Of a DNA stretch of 64,000 nt, positions 5,667 to 13,599 are shown in pieces. Source of the stretch: Archangium violaceum. Lineage in GTDB: Bacteria; Myxococcota; Myxococcia; Myxococcales; Myxococcaceae. Where the stretch lies: NCBI RefSeq assembly GCF_016859125.1, contig NZ_CP069338.1, positions 1,240,001 through 1,304,000 of the forward strand, in the 5' to 3' direction. Within the stretch, counting starts at the first letter, position 1; every line of letters starts with the position of its first letter. A model generated the notes under the pieces. That model was not told the origin of the DNA, did not search any database, and saw only the letters and a list, made by a program, of their open reading frames with translations. The translations under genes were made by a program, and so were the position numbers.

Positions 5667-7184
5667 TCAGAACAGCTTCCACCACTTCTTCTTCGGGGGC
5701 TCGGGAGGCTTCCGCTCGCTCTCCGGGCGGCTCACGGGTTCCACGGGAGGCGCCGCGGGAGCAGGAGGGGCCACGGGCGCCCGTCCGTAACGCGCCTCGA
5801 GCGCCCGGGCCTTCCGCTGGAGCGCCCCGCCCTTCACCGGATCCACCATGGCCACGTAGTGGGCGTAGCCCACGGCGGAGGCGATGACATCCCCGCCACG
5901 GCCCCACGTCTTGCCCTCGGGCCCGCTCTTCTCGAGCTGGTGCAGCAGGGCGCGGAAGCGCTTGAGCGTCTCGCGATCCACGCCGGGCTTGTCGTTGACG
6001 ACGATGCCCGTCACCTCCTGCTGCCGGCCCCGGCGCAGGACGCGCGTCTTCTCGGGGTGCGGAGTGAAGTCCTCCTGACGCACCAGCCAGCGCACGAAGC
6101 GCAGCAGCTCGCCCGCGTCGTGCGGTCCCGGCCCGTGGGCGGAGAACGTGAGGTCATCCGCGTAGCGCGTGTAGACGAAACCCAGCTTGCGCGCCGCGCC
6201 CGACAGGCGCCGATCCAACCGCCGGCAGAGGATGTTCGTCAGCGCGGGTGAAGTGGGCGCGCCCTGGGGCAGCCGCCGCTCGCCCTGGGCGACGTAGTAG
6301 CGCCGCCCGTCCAGCTCCACTTCCTCCACGTCCGGCTCGGTGCACAGCAGCGCCAGCACCGTGGCGGTGGCCTCGCTGTAGCCCAGCCGCACGAAGACGC
6401 CCTTCACCCGCGGGTACAGCACCGAGGGGAAGAAGTCCTTCAAGTCCAGGTTCACCACCACGCCCGCGCCCACGTGCGGCCGGGCATTCGTGACGATGGA
6501 GCGCCCCGCGCGGAAGCCGTGGGCCGCCTCGTGCACGGGCACCTTCTCCAGGATGTTCTCCAACACCCACGCCTGCGCGGCCTTCAGGCGCGGCAGGGGC
6601 GCGGAGATGAGCCGGGTGCCGCCCGTCTTCTTGGGCAGCAGGAAGCGCACGTAGTTGCTCGAGGTGGACACCGTACGCGCGAAGCACAACGCCCGGAGCT
6701 TCCCCACGCTCAGCCCCAACGCCTGCGCCAGCGCCTCCGGCGCCGCCAGCACCGGGAGCCCCTGGCGCGTGAGCTTCGCCTCATCCGTGACGCGCTCGCT
6801 CAGGCCCTCGGACACACCCCGGCCCAGGAAGAGCAGCTCCTTCGCCTTGCGCTCCTTCCAGGCCTGGGCCCGCGCCTGCCGCTCGCGCTCGCGCCGCTCC
6901 TTCGTCTCCTGCTGCTTGCGCCGGCTCTCCTCCAGCCGCCGCTTGCGCAGCTCGCGCTTCATCGCCTCCAGGTTGCCCAGCCGGCTCCGCTCGGTGGCGA
7001 GCGCGCGGATCTGCCCCCGCAGCTCGTTGCGCCGGTGCACCACGTCCGCCGGGTCCCCGGGAATGCCCGTGCGCGCCGGCCAGAAGCCCAGGCGCACCAT
7101 CTCCTCGAGGATGACCTCTTCCCGGGAGCTGGCGCGGATGCGGTCGTACAGCTCCTGTCGGTTACGGGGGGGCTGGGAGGACAT
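5667..7184 (-). CDS. retron reverse transcriptase (Mx162/Sa163-like)
   Basis: This is an RNA-directed DNA polymerase that makes msDNA from the adjacent ncRNA. Catalytic aspartates are Asp247 (NLDLKDFF) and the YADD box at 341-344. Both retron-specific signatures are present: NAxxH at 233-237 and VTG at 391-393, and QGAPTSP at 307-313 is intact. No maturase or endonuclease domain follows, which excludes a group II intron. An N-terminal extension of about 150 residues, rich in Arg, Lys and Glu and predicted coiled coil at 55-115, matches the long N-termini of myxobacterial Mx162-type enzymes. The Pro-rich C-terminal tail ends in KKKWWKLF. Base composition equals its neighbours, arguing for long residence rather than recent transfer. 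Confidence 0.95.
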   Translation of the reverse strand: MSSQPPRNRQELYDRIRASSREEVILEEMVRLGFWPARTGIPGDPADVVHRRNELRGQIRALATERSRLGNLEAMKRELRKRRLEESRRKQQETKERRERERQARAQAWKERKAKELLFLGRGVSEGLSERVTDEAKLTRQGLPVLAAPEALAQALGLSVGKLRALCFARTVSTSSNYVRFLLPKKTGGTRLISAPLPRLKAAQAWVLENILEKVPVHEAAHGFRAGRSIVTNARPHVGAGVVVNLDLKDFFPSVLYPRVKGVFVRLGYSEATATVLALLCTEPDVEEVELDGRRYYVAQGERRLPQGAPTSPALTNILCRRLDRRLSGAARKLGFVYTRYADDLTFSAHGPGPHDAGELLRFVRWLVRQEDFTPHPEKTRVLRRGRQQEVTGIVVNDKPGVDRETLKRFRALLHQLEKSGPEGKTWGRGGDVIASAVGYAHYVAMVDPVKGGALQRKARALEARYGRAPVAPPAPAAPPVEPVSRPESERKPPEPPKKKWWKLF

Positions 7185-7211
7185 GGTGACTCAGGGAGAG
7201 AGGGAGGGTCC

Positions 7212-7451
7212 GTCCACGCGGCGGTCAGAGAGCACCTTCGTACTGCTCTCGGGACTGGACCGTCTCAACTCAAGCGTTGCCCCCTCCCGGTGGCGCGCAG
7301 GACCAACGAGGTCGACAGCGCTGCCGCCACCGGGAGGGAGGCAACGCACAGTGAAGAGCGGGCCAGTGATGCATGACAGGCCATGAGGCATGGACGGCGA
7401 AACACCGCCCGGGTTGCAAGGTACTGCCCCCTGACCGCCGCGTGCGCGGAC
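7212..7451 (-). ncRNA. retron msr-msd RNA (template and primer for msDNA)
   Basis: The region has every retron ncRNA part in order, reading the minus strand. Arm a1 (7451-7431) ends ACGCGGCGGTCAG and pairs over 13 bp with a2 (7228-7212), which begins CTGACCGCCGCGT. The msr part follows a1 and holds a hairpin GGGCGGT-GTTTC-GCCGTCC (7410-7392) and a possible CCATG-CCT-CATGG. The msd part holds a 22-bp stem with a single bulge (7347-7325 with 7295-7274) around a 29-nt loop, then a GAGAGCA/TGCTCTC hairpin just before a2. If copying starts next to a2 and ends in msr, the msDNA would be about 160 nt, close to known Mx162 and Sa163 products. The branching G must be one of those just after a1; I cannot fix which. 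Confidence 0.9.
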
Positions 7452-7462
7452 CCTCGCCTCTC

Positions 7463-9109
7463 TCATGTGCGAGATACCCGTGAGTGCTGGAGCCTCAACG
7501 CGAGCAGGTGCTCGCACGGCCCCCGGAACAACTTGTTCTGCTGGAAAAAGTTGCACGTGCACTCACCGAAAACCATACGCTGGTCCGCGTCGAGTCGCAA
7601 AGTGGGTCGCAACACCTTCGTGCCCTCCTTCACCGCGCCGCTCAGCTCCACCGAAGCGTCCGTGGATCCGAGCCGGACCCTGAGGTCCACCGCCCTCGCG
7701 TCCAGGAAGCGCGTGGCGCGCTCCTCGCGCTCGTTGGCGAAGCGCAGCTTGTCCATGGGCAGGGGCTCGCGGCTCAGCTCGCGCGCCCGGTACACGCCCT
7801 TGTTCAAATCCCAGATGGCCCGCCCCGCCTGCGTCCAGGCCGACAGCGCGCCGAGCACCACGCCCCGCTCCAGCCCCAGCTTCGCCGCCAGCGCCTCGGG
7901 CCTGGCGGACCACGTCTCCTTGAGCGCGTCGAAGACCCGGCGGCGGGTGAGCTCGTCCACCTGCCCGCGCGGCGCCATCAGATCGAAGTTGCCCGCGGTG
8001 GACCAGTCATTGGCCGTCCACCCGGACAGACCCAGCGTGAAGGACAGGTCCCCCAGGTCCGCCACGTAGAAGGACGGCAGCCCCGTGCCCAGCAGGTGCA
8101 CGGTGAAGCGCCGGGCCACGGGGATGAGCCGCTCCAGCACGCGCAGACGCCGGCGGCCCCACACGCGGATGTCGTGCGTGCCCTCGCCCTCGAACACCGA
8201 GCGCGGACACACCACCTCCGTCCCCCACGGCTCGAACACCACCTTCACCGGCTGCCCCGGCGCCAGCTTGTAGCGCATGGAGCGCGGCCCCTTCTTCTCC
8301 TTGTGCCGCGCGAGCACGAAGAGGAAGTTGTGCACGTCCATGGGGTGCAGCGTGAAGCTCACCGCCGGCAGGGCCATCGCCGAGTTCACCTGCAGGAAGC
8401 CGCGCACCCAGGAGTCCGGGAGGTCGATCTTCACCTCCTTGTACGCCGTGTCCGTGCCCGTCCGCGTGGTGAAGCCGCTCGGGTCCACCTCGAAGCGCGT
8501 GCGCTTGTAGGAGCGGATCTTCTGGAACTCGTCGTAGAGCGGCGTCGAGTAGTCGATGTTGGTGGTGCCACACGAGAACTCGCCGATGTCCTGGAAGACC
8601 TCGTAGCTGGCGCCGAGCCGGCCGTAGCTGGACTCGTCCTGGCTGAAGCACTCGAAGAAGCACTCGTCCGGGTGGACGGTGATGACCGGATCGAACACGA
8701 ACCACAGGTCCCGGTTCTTCTCGTAGAGGTATTGGAAGTAGCGCGAGCGCGCCGTGTAGAAGGCCCGCATGCGATTGGAGCTCTCCGACTCCAACGCGGC
8801 GAGCTCCTCGCGCAGGGCCTTCAGGCGGCTGGCCACCGCCTGGCGCTGCGAGGCGACGGCCGCCAGGTCCACCTGCTCCTGCTGCGCGGCCCAGAGCTTG
8901 TAGGCCGTCTTGTCCCTGGGCTTGAAGCGCAGGTCCGACACCACCACGTCGTGCAGGGCGGAGATGGCCTCGCGGAAGGCCACGTTCTGGCGCAGCTCGC
9001 CGGAGAAGAAGGTGGGCTGGCGCTTGAGGTCCGGCGCGAAGGACAGCTGGGTGCTGTCCCCCCGGTGCTGCACCGCGGTGTTGCCCGCGTAGGAATACTC
9101 AAACTGCAC
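7463..9109 (-). CDS. SWIM zinc-finger protein
   Basis: The 548-residue protein ends in a SWIM zinc finger with Cys517, Cys519, Cys532 and His534 (CxC...CxH), a fold used for DNA or protein binding. The long N-terminal part is predicted alpha/beta with no motif I can name; a helical stretch of about 40 residues (around 80-120) looks coiled coil. The GTG start has GGAGGT at good spacing and overlaps the stop of the WGR-HEAT gene by 11 nt. Its own stop is only 11 nt before the retron a1 arm. In E. coli a SWIM gene (yehQ) sits in a cluster with a WGR-domain gene (yehI), which supports a functional link between these families. Confidence 0.88.
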   Translation of the reverse strand: MQFEYSYAGNTAVQHRGDSTQLSFAPDLKRQPTFFSGELRQNVAFREAISALHDVVVSDLRFKPRDKTAYKLWAAQQEQVDLAAVASQRQAVASRLKALREELAALESESSNRMRAFYTARSRYFQYLYEKNRDLWFVFDPVITVHPDECFFECFSQDESSYGRLGASYEVFQDIGEFSCGTTNIDYSTPLYDEFQKIRSYKRTRFEVDPSGFTTRTGTDTAYKEVKIDLPDSWVRGFLQVNSAMALPAVSFTLHPMDVHNFLFVLARHKEKKGPRSMRYKLAPGQPVKVVFEPWGTEVVCPRSVFEGEGTHDIRVWGRRRLRVLERLIPVARRFTVHLLGTGLPSFYVADLGDLSFTLGLSGWTANDWSTAGNFDLMAPRGQVDELTRRRVFDALKETWSARPEALAAKLGLERGVVLGALSAWTQAGRAIWDLNKGVYRARELSREPLPMDKLRFANEREERATRFLDARAVDLRVRLGSTDASVELSGAVKEGTKVLRPTLRLDADQRMVFGECTCNFFQQNKLFRGPCEHLLALRLQHSRVSRT

Positions 9110-12100
9110 GGCGGACCTCCACCGGGCGGACGTGGAAGGGAACGGGGATGGACGGCTGTGCCCTGGCGATGGAGAGCATCGCCTCCAGCGCCGCGGCCCG
9201 ATGCTCTATAGCGATGGTGGCTGACATCCGGTGCAGCACCTCCATGGCGACGCGGCCACTGGCCTCGGTGCTCCGGCCCTCGCGCTGGAGGAAACCCAGC
9301 ACGCGCTGTCGCGCGACCCGCCCCTTGTTCACCTGGCTCAACACCCGGGTGAAGTAGGGCGTCAGCTGCTCCACCAGGGCCGGGTTGCCACGGGCGAAGC
9401 GGTCCAGGTAGTTGGTGGCGAAGAGCTGCACCGCGGGCGCGGGGTGCTCGGACAGGCGCAGGAGCAACGTGGGCCCGTCCTCCTCGCGGAAGGAGCGCGT
9501 GAGCATGTCCCTCCCGAAGGCCTGCACGTCCTTGCGCACGCTGTCCGCCACGGAGACGAGCACCTCCAGGGAGAAGTCCTCCGGGGCGAAGCGCTCGCGG
9601 AAGTAGCGGAAGCCGAAGGCGCGGGCATCGTCCCAGCGCGAGTCCAGCAGGCCCACCGCCGTGGATAGCTCCGCGCGCACCTCGGGGACGTGGGCCTCCA
9701 GCCAGCGCCACGCCCACTCGCGCACCGCCAACACGTCATGCCCGGCGAGCTTCACCGCGCGAGGCACGTCCACCGTCAACACCGCGCCATGGCGGGCGAG
9801 CAGCTCCGCGCCCACCGTCTGCGCGTCGGCGTCCTCGGACTCGAGCAGCCGCCACGCCGTCTCCACCGGCAGCGCGGCCAGCGCGGGCGCGAGCTCTCCC
9901 GAGAGAAGCGCGGCCACGTGGGCCGGCACGCCCTCCGGGAGGCGTCGGCGCAGCAGCGCGCCCAGCAGGGCCTCCACCACCCGCGCTCCGGCGGAGGGGC
10001 TCGCGGCCAGGAGCCGCCCGAGCAACGGGCGCACGGCTGCGCGCACATCCGCCACTCGGCTGGTGGCCAGACGCGTGAGGAGATCCTCCTGGGCCAGCAG
10101 CGTGGCCTCGGACTCGGAGAGGAGCGCGAGCAGCCGCAGCCCCAGGGCCCGGAGCGGCGCGTGCTCGGACTGCACCAGCAGCAGGAGCAGGTCCTCCGGC
10201 ACGGGCTCGGTGCGCAGCTCCCTGCGCAGCAACAGCTCGCCGCCCAGTTCCTGCACCTCGGGCATCGGGTGGGCGAGCAGGTCGCGCACCACCTCCAGCC
10301 CCACCGCGCGGGAGACAGGCCCCAGCGCGGCGAGCACCACGCGGGCCACGTCCGTGGCGAGGGGGCCGTCCTCCTTTTCTTTCAGGGACAGCAGCGCCGC
10401 CACCAACCGGCCCACGAGCGTCCGCACGGCCTGCTCGGAGAGCACGGAGCCGCGCACCAGGTTGGCCGCATAGGCCCGGGTATCCGCGTGCCGCGCGGTG
10501 GCCAGCCCCGCGATGAAGCCGGTGTCCTCGATGAGGGAGTGGCGCACCTCGTCCATCCAGCGGAACGCCTGCTGGCGGGCGGGCGGGTACGAGGAGCGCG
10601 CCACCGCGAGCAGCAGCGCCCGGGGCTCGCGCCGCGCGTCCAGCCTCTGAGAGGCCAGCTCGAAGCCGAGGCGCGCGGTGGACACATAGGGGCGCTCCAG
10701 CAACATGGCCACCGCGTCCACGTCCAGCTTCGCGAGGAAGTCCGGGCAGGCGCGCAGCGCGCGGGAGGCGAAGTCGTGCACCGGAGCGCAGCCACTCTCG
10801 TCCAGGAGGTGCAGCAGGCCCGCCGGGGTGCGCTCCCACAGCTTGGGGAAGGCCTCCTCGCGGACGTCAGGTGCCTTGTCTCCGGGCCGGTACGCACCCA
10901 GGCAACGGAAGGCGAGCGAGTTCTCCAGGGGCTCGTAGCGCGAGCTCTCGCGGTAGAGCAGCTGGTTGAAGGCCCAGTAGGGCCACCAGACGTCCCACTG
11001 CTTCTGGTCGCGGCCCCAGCCGGTGGTGCGCACGGGGACGGCGTCCGCGTCGTTGAAGGCGAGCAGCACGCCCACCGCCATCTTCACGAACTCAGGGCGC
11101 TCCAGCTCGCCCAGCCGGCGCAGCGTGCGCCACACCCGGCGCCGGAGATACGTGCGCGTCTCGCGGGTATAGCCGCGCGGGTGGCTGAGCCTGAGATGGC
11201 GCTCCTTCTCGTAGCGCCAAGCGATGAGGCCGAACACCTCGCCGTCGTACCGGTACTCGGCCGCCTTGAAGAGGTGGCGCAGCACCCGAACCGCGCGCAG
11301 GGTGAAGGGCACCGTGCGGAGCACCCGCAGGAGCGCGGGCCGCACCGTCTCCGAGTCCACCAGATAGAGGGGCTCGAGGACATCGACCGCCTCCTCCTTC
11401 CCGGAGGCGAGCCAGGCATCGAGCGCCTTGCCGAAGGGCTCCGCGTCCCCACCCCGGGCCGGCTCGCGCAGCGCGGGAGGCAGCTTCCCCACCACGTCCC
11501 GGCGGAAGTCGGCGCGGGTGGACTCGTCGGAGAGTCGCAGCAGCGCCTCGGTGGCGATGCGGCGCACCATGTCCGGCGTGGAGGCATTCGCGTAGAGCCG
11601 CCCGAGCGCGGACACGGAGGCCTCCGAGCCCAGGCGACCCAGGGCCGCGGCGACGCAATACGCGCGCAGGGGCGTGGCCCGCTCCAGCATGGGCAGCAGC
11701 AGGGGCTCGGCGGCACGCACACGCAGCTCCCCCAGGCGCCAGATGACGCGCTCGAGGTCCCGAGGCTGGGCACGCACGGTAGCGCGGCGGAACCAGCGCC
11801 GGGCCTGGGCCTCCTGCTGGAGCTGTTCCAGGAGGACGCGCTCCCGAGGTGACGTGCCAGCCGGAGCCTCCACCGTCGGAGGAGGCGGCGCGGGAGTGCG
11901 AGGCACGGGCGGCGAGGCCGGAGTACCGGGCGCGCCTCCACGCACATAGCCCGAATCCAGCTTGGACTGGACGAGCTTGTCGAAGACGCGCTTCGCCTCG
12001 GCCTGGGACACGGGTACGGGCGTCTTCGAGCCGTCCTTGAGCGCGGTGCCGCTCCGCCCGTAGCGGAAGTTCACCACGCACTGGCCCGGGGAGACCTCCA

Positions 12101-12173
12101 GGAGGTCCACCTCGTACACCTTGTCGCTCTTCCCCTCCTGGAAGAGCAGGCTCACCTGCTCGAGCAGTTTCAC
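9099..12173 (-). CDS. WGR domain plus HEAT-repeat protein
   Basis: Residues 1 to about 80 form a WGR domain (KVYEVDLLEV...VNFRYGRSGTALKDGSKT...), the nucleic-acid-binding module also found in PARPs and MolR-like bacterial proteins. After a Pro-rich linker, residues from about 125 to the end are helical HEAT/armadillo-like repeats, recognisable as Leu/Ala-rich pairs such as the ARHADTRAYAANLV type. At 1,024 residues it is a large scaffold without an enzymatic motif. The GTG start lies one nt after the stop of the upstream WGR-propeller gene, so translation is coupled. Likely role: a DNA- or RNA-binding scaffold working with the SWIM protein. Confidence 0.88.
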   Translation of the reverse strand: MKLLEQVSLLFQEGKSDKVYEVDLLEVSPGQCVVNFRYGRSGTALKDGSKTPVPVSQAEAKRVFDKLVQSKLDSGYVRGGAPGTPASPPVPRTPAPPPPTVEAPAGTSPRERVLLEQLQQEAQARRWFRRATVRAQPRDLERVIWRLGELRVRAAEPLLLPMLERATPLRAYCVAAALGRLGSEASVSALGRLYANASTPDMVRRIATEALLRLSDESTRADFRRDVVGKLPPALREPARGGDAEPFGKALDAWLASGKEEAVDVLEPLYLVDSETVRPALLRVLRTVPFTLRAVRVLRHLFKAAEYRYDGEVFGLIAWRYEKERHLRLSHPRGYTRETRTYLRRRVWRTLRRLGELERPEFVKMAVGVLLAFNDADAVPVRTTGWGRDQKQWDVWWPYWAFNQLLYRESSRYEPLENSLAFRCLGAYRPGDKAPDVREEAFPKLWERTPAGLLHLLDESGCAPVHDFASRALRACPDFLAKLDVDAVAMLLERPYVSTARLGFELASQRLDARREPRALLLAVARSSYPPARQQAFRWMDEVRHSLIEDTGFIAGLATARHADTRAYAANLVRGSVLSEQAVRTLVGRLVAALLSLKEKEDGPLATDVARVVLAALGPVSRAVGLEVVRDLLAHPMPEVQELGGELLLRRELRTEPVPEDLLLLLVQSEHAPLRALGLRLLALLSESEATLLAQEDLLTRLATSRVADVRAAVRPLLGRLLAASPSAGARVVEALLGALLRRRLPEGVPAHVAALLSGELAPALAALPVETAWRLLESEDADAQTVGAELLARHGAVLTVDVPRAVKLAGHDVLAVREWAWRWLEAHVPEVRAELSTAVGLLDSRWDDARAFGFRYFRERFAPEDFSLEVLVSVADSVRKDVQAFGRDMLTRSFREEDGPTLLLRLSEHPAPAVQLFATNYLDRFARGNPALVEQLTPYFTRVLSQVNKGRVARQRVLGFLQREGRSTEASGRVAMEVLHRMSATIAIEHRAAALEAMLSIARAQPSIPVPFHVRPVEVRRAV

Positions 12174-12174
12174 G

Positions 12175-13599
12175 TCAGCTCACCAGCCTGCGGATGTCGC
12201 CATAGGCGCGGTAGAAGCCACCGCGCGCGGACTCGTGAACACCCTCTACCACGTAACGGCTCCCCGCCTGGCGGATGTCCTTGGGGAACTGCACGTGGAA
12301 GTCGGGACGGTAGCCGGGGGACACCACGCGCACGCGCAGGTTCGGGCCGTCCTGGTAGCACTCCACGATGACGCCGCTGTCCGCCTCGCGCGTCGTCTCC
12401 ACGGTACCCACGGGCACGGCGGCCACGGGCGCGGGCGCCTTGATGTCGCGGGCCTTGGGCAGCGAGCCGGACTGCGCGGCCTGGATGGCCTTCTCGCTCG
12501 CGTCGACGCAGGCGAGCACGCCCTCGGTGGTGACGAGGTAGAGCCGATCCTGGAAGAACTGCATGGAGAACGCCGAGCCGCAGCCGGTGGACAACTTCCA
12601 CAGCCGCTGGCCCTTGTCGTTGAAGCAGTAGACGCTGGACATGTTGTCACCAGCGAAGACGTACCGGCCGTCATCCACCGCGGCGCAGGAGAACACCGCC
12701 GCGTCGCACTGCATGACGGGCCCCGCGTCGCCCTTCTTGGTGAAGCGGTGCACGAAGCCCAGGTTGGTACAGGCGTAGAGGGAGGACTCCTCCTGCCAGC
12801 CGAAGAGCACGTTGCCCTGGGTGGGGCGGTGCCAGATTTCCCGGCCGTCCTCCCAGTCGTACATGGTCAGGCCACGCCCGTGGCCGTGGTACATGCCCAG
12901 CTCGTCGCAGCGGACCATCCACCCATGGGTGCCGACGCTCTGCTTCTCCCACTGGGACTCGTCCTCGTGGTTGATGGCGGTGAGCTTGCCGCCCGCGTCG
13001 GACACGCCGAGGACACCGTCCTTGATGTCCAGCCAGTAGATGTCCACGTCGTCCGAGATGTTGTACGCGACGCGGGGCACCTTGCCCCCGAGGTCGTAGA
13101 CACGACCATCGTCACACCCGGCGTAGAGCCAGCGGTCATCGGCGACGATGCACTTCACGCCATCGGCGAGACGGAACTGGGAGAGCGTCCGGCCCTCATG
13201 GTCCACCGAGTAGATGGAACCGCTCTCGTTGCCCACCCAGCAGCGCGAGTCGTCCACGAAGATGCCGAAGGCGCGATCGCCCGAGTTGAACTTCCAGAGG
13301 AGCGGAGCCTGGTTCGCGTTGGAGCGACCGCTGGTGATCTCCCGGCGGGTGACCGAGCGCTTCGTACGCTGGCCCATGACGGCGGGGGCATAACCCTTGC
13401 GGACCTTCTCGTTGATCTTCTTGCGAGCCTCCGCGAGCGCCTTGTCCGGGGACGGGAACTGGGAGACCTGTGTCTGGCCCTTGTCGCCGATGCGGCCGTA
13501 GCGAACGGTGAGGGAGTTGCCCTCCACCTTCACCTCGTAGAACTTGTGCGAGCCGCCCCCCTCTTCCGACAGCTCCAGGTACGTCCGTTCCTCGGCCAT
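12175..13599 (-). CDS. WGR domain plus PQQ-like beta-propeller protein
   Basis: Residues 1-80 are a second WGR domain (HKFYEVKVEGNSLTVRYGRIGDKGQTQ). Residues about 95-400 form repeated four-stranded blades of the PQQ/quinoprotein type (for example DDGRYVFAGDNMSSVYCFNDKG), without a signal peptide, so it is cytoplasmic and probably a protein-interaction propeller rather than a dehydrogenase. The last 60 residues (VIVECYQDGPNLRVRVVSPGYRPDFHVQFPKDIR) form another small beta domain. It is the first gene of the WGR/SWIM/retron string and is transcribed away from the JAMM lipoprotein gene. Confidence 0.88.
   Translation of the reverse strand: MAEERTYLELSEEGGGSHKFYEVKVEGNSLTVRYGRIGDKGQTQVSQFPSPDKALAEARKKINEKVRKGYAPAVMGQRTKRSVTRREITSGRSNANQAPLLWKFNSGDRAFGIFVDDSRCWVGNESGSIYSVDHEGRTLSQFRLADGVKCIVADDRWLYAGCDDGRVYDLGGKVPRVAYNISDDVDIYWLDIKDGVLGVSDAGGKLTAINHEDESQWEKQSVGTHGWMVRCDELGMYHGHGRGLTMYDWEDGREIWHRPTQGNVLFGWQEESSLYACTNLGFVHRFTKKGDAGPVMQCDAAVFSCAAVDDGRYVFAGDNMSSVYCFNDKGQRLWKLSTGCGSAFSMQFFQDRLYLVTTEGVLACVDASEKAIQAAQSGSLPKARDIKAPAPVAAVPVGTVETTREADSGVIVECYQDGPNLRVRVVSPGYRPDFHVQFPKDIRQAGSRYVVEGVHESARGGFYRAYGDIRRLVS

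Follow-up and report, generated by a model that had tools for sequence, protein, structure and literature searches.

A 64,000-nucleotide stretch of the Archangium violaceum genome (NZ_CP069338.1, positions 1,240,001 to 1,304,000; hereafter the window) encodes on its minus strand a structured RNA that is very probably the msr-msd of a type XIII retron, reverse transcribed into msDNA. As read from the sequence, this RNA sits inside a one-strand cluster of four genes, with the SWIM gene on one side and the reverse transcriptase (RT) gene on the other, in the order WGR-propeller, WGR-HEAT, SWIM, ncRNA, RT. The strand had been left unstated in an earlier note on this DNA. The cluster comprises:

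5667..7184, minus strand: retron RT, 505 aa, type XIII (PADLOC RT_XIII, 4.7e-189)
7204..7455, minus strand: msr-msd ncRNA, from outer a1 to outer a2 (folding energy, RNA model R1, relatives)
7463..9109, minus strand: SWIM_XIII partner protein, 548 aa (PADLOC SWIM_XIII, 9.4e-233; Pfam SWIM)
9099..12173, minus strand: WGR and HEAT-repeat protein, 1024 aa (PADLOC WGR_XIII, E 0)
12175..13599, minus strand: fourth gene, WGR, beta-propeller and C-terminal module, 474 aa (conserved in relatives; structure model)

The PADLOC models of RT, SWIM and WGR/HEAT are all matched, at the E-values listed, and the RNA can be counted as a well-founded addition to type XIII. Type XIII as modelled by PADLOC (RT_XIII, SWIM_XIII, WGR_XIII, HEAT-ARM_XIII) shares with the window the RT, SWIM and WGR-HEAT matches and an ncRNA within the cluster, whereas the window adds a WGR-propeller gene that has no PADLOC match even at E 10 and that makes the cluster a variant of type XIII. 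The predicted PCNA-like fold of SWIM_XIII described below is a further difference, as a reading made in the present analysis. The WGR-HEAT protein has Pfam WGR and HEAT_2 matches, each under its own cut-off. An NCBIfam search of the RT returned only other retron or RT families, all under their cut-offs, and its relatives by sequence among solved structures include Ec86, Ec67, Kva2 and Ec78, none of them named type XIII. The NAxxH (region X) and VTG signatures that the earlier note reported in the enzyme are present together with YADD, and all three are invariant in 11 aligned RTs.

The A. violaceum genome is a single contig of 12.68 Mb. In a collection scan the closest named RTs are from Archangium (81-84% identity), and the genes flanking the cluster are common to several Archangium relatives and partly to other genera, within the DNA fetched, which suggests that the locus is chromosomal and long-resident.

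The RNA has the architecture expected of an msr-msd:

7444-7431, minus strand: a1 core CACGCGGCGGTCAG, forming 14 perfect base pairs with the a2 core
7228-7215, minus strand: a2 core CTGACCGCCGCGTG, pairing with the a1 core
7455-7447 with 7212-7204, minus strand: outer arm block of 9 bp, beyond the ends given in the earlier note
7410-7392, minus strand: msr hairpin, 99.8% of cells paired in 60 sequences
7274..7347, minus strand: msd long stem-loop, arms 7347-7325 and 7295-7274, about 22 bp with one odd base
7415..7421, minus strand: CCUUGCA, proposed priming site with G at 7417, suggested by column conservation

Its folding energy is -175.9 kcal/mol, against -119.1 +/- 5.4 for 200 dinucleotide shuffles, none of which folds as well (z -10.5). 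Its longest perfect inverted repeat, at 14, only narrowly exceeds the best of 200 simple base shuffles, which reached 13. Folding energy, inverted repeat and pairing in relatives bear out the reading, made in the earlier note from the letters, of an msr-msd adjoining a retron RT, and the msr hairpin and 22-bp msd stem named there were both found. The perfect a1/a2 pairing is likewise present, at 14 rather than the 13 base pairs counted then and with the outer block in addition. No Rfam family matches the window at gathering score. Loose scores add only hits far under the models' cut-offs, four of them to three eukaryotic miRNA models and one to a CRISPR-repeat model, and these were set aside.

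A covariance model, R1, was built from 12 RNAs (the window and 11 relatives from five genera) and by construction matches the window, at 7199-7460. In the 12-RNA alignment 15 of the 86 predicted pairs show compensatory changes, chiefly in the msd stem; being invariant, the 12 pairs of the a1/a2 core are uninformative there. R1 matches 75 of 86 loci, 11 of the 86 having been used to build it, and outside its building lineage it matches 64 of 75. RNA, SWIM and RT occur together in 71 loci, with the RNA between both genes; in L103 SWIM lies 5.6 kb off. Among the 11 loci without an R1 match, five have SWIM and WGR-HEAT (four from Chitinophaga, one from Flavihumibacter), and the other six have an RT and match neither SWIM nor WGR-HEAT. 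In three cyanobacterial loci RT and RNA are present, but the DNA fetched lacks any match to SWIM or WGR-HEAT. Together with the six RT-only loci, these indicate that the partners are not always needed.

The cyanobacterial RTs for which the DNA fetched holds no SWIM or WGR-HEAT match are those of L079, L082, L084, L093, L095, L099, L105 and L114. A 303-aa frame with no Pfam match lies directly upstream in L082 and L084, and no clear partner was found among the RT neighbours of the two or three cyanobacterial loci scanned.

Covariation was assessed on a structure-blind alignment (A5) that takes in 60 of 80 sense matches. Near-copies and the eight weakest matches (L108, L137, L117, L101, L106, L092, L059 and L141) make up the 20 omitted, so the percentages from A5 lean toward the better matches. 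Over 39 pairs, 91.3% of cells are paired in A5, compared with 71.8% in shuffled alignments and 33-45% with slid partners, and both-side changes occur at 31 of the 39; none of 500 shuffles reaches either the paired share or the both-side count. Such changes are found in all 19 pairs of helices 3-5 of the msd stem and in five of the eight pairs of the msr hairpin. Further pair types in A5 are not above shuffles (132/500).

RNAalifold on A5 misses a1/a2 because the arms are too variable to align, and the arms were therefore tested locus by locus. From 92 R1 matches, 12 antisense ones (palindromic group A) and the Mx162-like L059 were removed, leaving 79; five without an anchor were dropped, giving 74 including the window, among which a few misplaced anchors (for example, L105) were kept. 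Because L069-L073 duplicate five of L021-L031, each of these loci entered the counts once. The longest Watson-Crick helix between the arms has a median of 11 bp (minimum 4), against 5 in base-shuffled arms, and beats the 99th percentile of shuffles in 49 of the 74 sequences, whereas duplex energy does so in just 31. The a1/a2 pairing, whose failure in relatives the earlier note had named as grounds for refutation, is conserved. Relatives from several phyla share a1/a2, msr hairpin and msd stem, the latter two with compensatory changes, and by this comparison of sequences the RNA structure is under strong selection.

The outer a1 arm lies 7 bases after the SWIM stop codon and the RNA ends 19 bases before the RT start, with no sigma-70-like promoter on the minus strand between 5400 and 13900 in a search of the sigma-70 type only. 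The same layout would suit a structured RNA that acts as leader or attenuator between the two genes and is never reverse transcribed. This is very improbable, since the RT has retron-specific motifs, the RNA has the a1/a2 topology, and R1 matches occur where SWIM was not found (L099, L105, L114 and L118). That the retron has decayed is hardly conceivable: no point in favour was found, the four frames are open, with 64-93% identity to their counterparts in 11 relatives from five genera, and the RNA covaries.

If the RNA is a retron msr-msd, the columns of CUUGCA are the likeliest place for priming. They are at least 90% conserved in 60 sequences and are faced by CGAAGG, so that a CCUU/AAGG pairing could close the a1/a2 side; in the window the CCUU of CCUUGCA is able to pair with AAGG at 7235-7238. 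Nannocystis has CCUAGCA in the same columns, which contains TAGC, where the window has UUGC. Passages of PMC6868368 give TAGC as the commonest retron priming motif and CAGC as the motif of Mx162/Sa163. The conserved priming G is probably G7417 of CCUUGCA. Distant relatives do not share the UCAG that closes the 14-bp core; in favour of the earlier note, R1 aligns it with the UCAG of Mx162-like RNAs.

Nannocystis exedens DSM 71 offers a scale for the product. Its locus L111, which we infer to be the Ne144 retron (Retron-Nex2), has an RT 60% identical to that of the window, an ncRNA of the same clade and TAGC at the proposed priming site; it differs from the window in having no WGR-propeller match. 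A 144-nt product fits this locus, as from either start it would end just 3' of the msr hairpin or slightly further. Scaling on it gives two candidate templates in the window:

7239..7383, minus strand: predicted msDNA template, 145 nt, primed at G7417
7229-7375, minus strand: alternative template, 147 nt, primed at the a1-core end

The msDNA would accordingly measure about 145-147 nt if L111 is Ne144, and at 145 versus 147 nt size cannot separate the two priming starts. The size of about 160 nt proposed in the earlier note is not confirmed by this scaling, though lengths up to 163 nt are possible.

Retrons were first discovered in myxobacteria, and Mx162 was the first retron found, in 1984. 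RT_XIII matches (E up to 1e-90) are found in 69 of 147 genomes of the class, so that type XIII is widespread in myxobacteria, and Mx162 seems to belong to this broad family. The lineage of the window RT is confined to 12 of 96 family genomes (75-100% identity). A second RT_XIII lies in the window's own genome (C1:2909110-2910447) and is 49% identical to the window RT. The lineage of this second copy is taken for that of Mx162/Sa163 on the strength of CAGC, the fit of a 162-nt product and the spread of its score band; this band (494-523 bits) is matched in all 27 genomes of one genus, probably Myxococcus. In L067, an Mx162-like locus, a 162-nt product starting beside a2 would end just 3' of the msr hairpin.

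These two lineages separate in an RT tree of 47 sequences that we chose, rooted at the midpoint. Six Mx162-like RTs and L150 of N. exedens form one clade (support 1.0) that does not hold the window RT, which groups with L022 and L023 (0.91), joined next by the remaining members of its lineage, by Myxococcota MAGs and by Nannocystis. N. exedens DSM 71 itself has two RT_XIII matches, one in the window clade and the other, L150, with the Mx162-like RTs; no L067-like RNA was found upstream of L150 by local alignment. CAGC is absent 5' of the msr hairpin in the window RNA and present in the Mx162-like L067 and L002. The assignment to the Mx162/Sa163 class made in the earlier note is thus not supported, as the RT falls in the other clade, CAGC is absent and the same genome holds a separate Mx162-like copy.

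In its fullest form that assignment makes the window RNA an orthologue of Mx162/Sa163 (Retron-Mxa1 and Retron-Sau1), with priming at the terminal G of the 14-bp a1 core and an msDNA of about 160 nt. The two share the broad type XIII family of RT and partners and a hairpin-rich msr-msd of similar size. With filters off R1 matches all 15 Mx162-like loci tried (26-47 bits), aligning UCAG with UCAG, and 155-163 nt would be possible from the a1-core start if the end lay closer to the msr hairpin. With default filters, in contrast, R1 matches just two of the ten such loci given, UCAG is not conserved in distant relatives whereas CUUGCA is, and the Nannocystis scaling yields 147 nt even from the a1-core start. 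In view also of the RT clade, orthology is improbable, and a type XIII msr-msd of a distinct lineage, probably primed at G7417, is the preferred reading.

The Mx162-like retron of the same genome (L038, G000:C1:2899000-2913000) has an opposite-strand AAA ATPase and a Tox-REase-5/Imm52 pair (PADLOC PDC-M17A/B) between SWIM and RT.

The fourth gene encodes a WGR-propeller protein whose structure model (pLDDT 86.6) resembles a WD40 propeller (5yzv_B, TMt 0.83). Each of the 11 relatives fetched has it (77-93% identity) upstream of WGR-HEAT, with a gap of 10 bases or less in ten of them and of about 0.8 kb in L026. A search at E up to 1e-40 places it in exactly 12 of the 96 family genomes, the ones that carry the window RT lineage, with no hit in the remaining 84; because the 12 genomes are related, they do not count as independent events. 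Five of 75 more distant loci carry the gene, three of them upstream (L075, L097 and L100) and two downstream of the RT (L077 and L081). In L133 the RT frame (9001-10701) runs on into a C-terminal module like that of the WGR-propeller protein (47% over 64 aa), a fusion tying the fourth gene to the RT. The other 69 loci, some of them short contigs, gave no match. One of the 12 genomes has an extra copy (57%) at L155 (G041:C54:12000-31900); the 20 kb fetched there contain no match to the retron RT, SWIM or WGR-HEAT.

Structure prediction gives the SWIM protein an entire sliding clamp of the PCNA type, after which come a winged-helix-like region and the zinc finger:

8021..9010, minus strand: predicted PCNA-like sliding-clamp domain, SWIM residues 34-363, with a helical insert at about 68-131 (AlphaFold2 model)
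7784..7954, minus strand: winged-helix-like region, SWIM residues 386-442 (our reading of the secondary-structure order in the model)
7508..7561, minus strand: SWIM zinc-finger residues C517, C519, C532 and H534 (conservation; Pfam SWIM)

The AlphaFold2 model was made from 52 sequences (pLDDT 77.5, pTM 0.70). Compared by VIA with a whole PCNA monomer, it aligns 231 of 246 residues at 2.9 A rmsd (Z 20.7; model residues 35-363), and the best 50 VIA matches listed are 49 PCNA and one chain of the 9-1-1 clamp complex. Foldseek matches the model to 7ti8_G (E 1.1e-9), and in a viral structure library the top two matches, like most of those named among the best 50, are PCNA or sliding clamps. Model confidence is mostly good in the second clamp half (blocks 72-96) and lower in the first (blocks 40-90). 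At the sequence level the SWIM-family profile finds no PCNA among 14 weak PDB matches (E up to 10) and Pfam PCNA has no match in the protein, so that the clamp rests on one AlphaFold2 model. PCNA and other two-domain clamps thus share the predicted fold of residues 34-363 and differ in showing no detected sequence similarity and in the SWIM protein's clamp being followed by the two further regions. The three zinc-finger cysteines are invariant and the histidine at least 90% conserved in 52 sequences, in which R319, R320, R321 and R327 of helix 319-328 are likewise invariant; by analogy with PCNA, this helix would face DNA. The SWIM protein of the Mx162-like L038 is 32% identical to that of the window, and viral contigs yielded a single 87-base piece of a SWIM relative. 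No paper linking retrons to a sliding clamp was found among the matches listed, which scarcely cover preprints, and a prior report is possible.

According to PMC12548924, retrons generally keep a toxic partner in check through RT and msDNA until phage attack frees it. In the window, the RT would prime from the 2'-OH of the conserved G, probably G7417, as retron biology suggests, and would copy the msd, yielding a branched msDNA some 145 nt long that remains with the RT. This complex would keep the toxic partner inactive until a phage disturbs it, and the freed partner would stop growth or kill the cell. Searches of the three partner proteins with Pfam, PADLOC and NCBIfam, and fold searches of two of them, revealed no catalytic domain (nuclease or NADase, for example), and the clamp-like protein is therefore itself proposed to act on DNA. 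The acting partner is quite possibly the SWIM protein, with its predicted PCNA-like clamp, winged-helix-like region and zinc finger, although we place this slightly below an even chance. Once freed, its clamp might close around DNA or crowd it where replication is under way, or imitate a phage clamp of two domains, while the WGR proteins could serve as sensors of DNA ends or nicks. The full proposal is tentative and, taken whole, rather unlikely: type XIII retrons would act via a PCNA-like clamp that RT and msDNA keep unloaded, phage attack would let it load on or block replicating DNA, and the WGR proteins, the WGR-propeller being a new subunit, would read DNA ends.

PCNA-like proteins are usually scaffolds, and the SWIM clamp might instead hold RT and msDNA or aid synthesis, with toxicity residing in WGR-HEAT or at the membrane via the RT tail. 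We lean against this reading while regarding it as a real possibility. The window RT ends in KKKWWKLF (C-terminal, 5667-5693). By a simple rule, 37 of 93 RTs have, after a low-complexity linker, WWK(L/F/V)(F/W)-like tails and 22 of 93 a hydrophobic stretch, ends that suggest membrane contact, whereas 34 of 93 show neither feature. KKKWWKLF was at first read as a clamp-binding motif, a reading given up in view of the hydrophobic tails at the same place in other RTs; these make membrane contact at least as likely as clamp binding, and neither is claimed.

In the literature searched, no paper was seen to address the mechanism of type XIII, and the one paper naming the type gives it among PADLOC predictions. 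The clamp prediction, the fourth subunit and the cross-phylum RNA model make specific tests possible. The predicted clamp is the part likely to surprise specialists, and it depends on a single prediction; to our knowledge, a sliding clamp as defence effector would be a new principle if true.

R1 also adds many msr-msd sequences, including those of three loci in which tandem msr-msd pairs, 83-85% alike, precede one RT (L074, 1433-2022; L087, 3894-4421; L088, 5043-5568). In such loci one retron may make two msDNAs.
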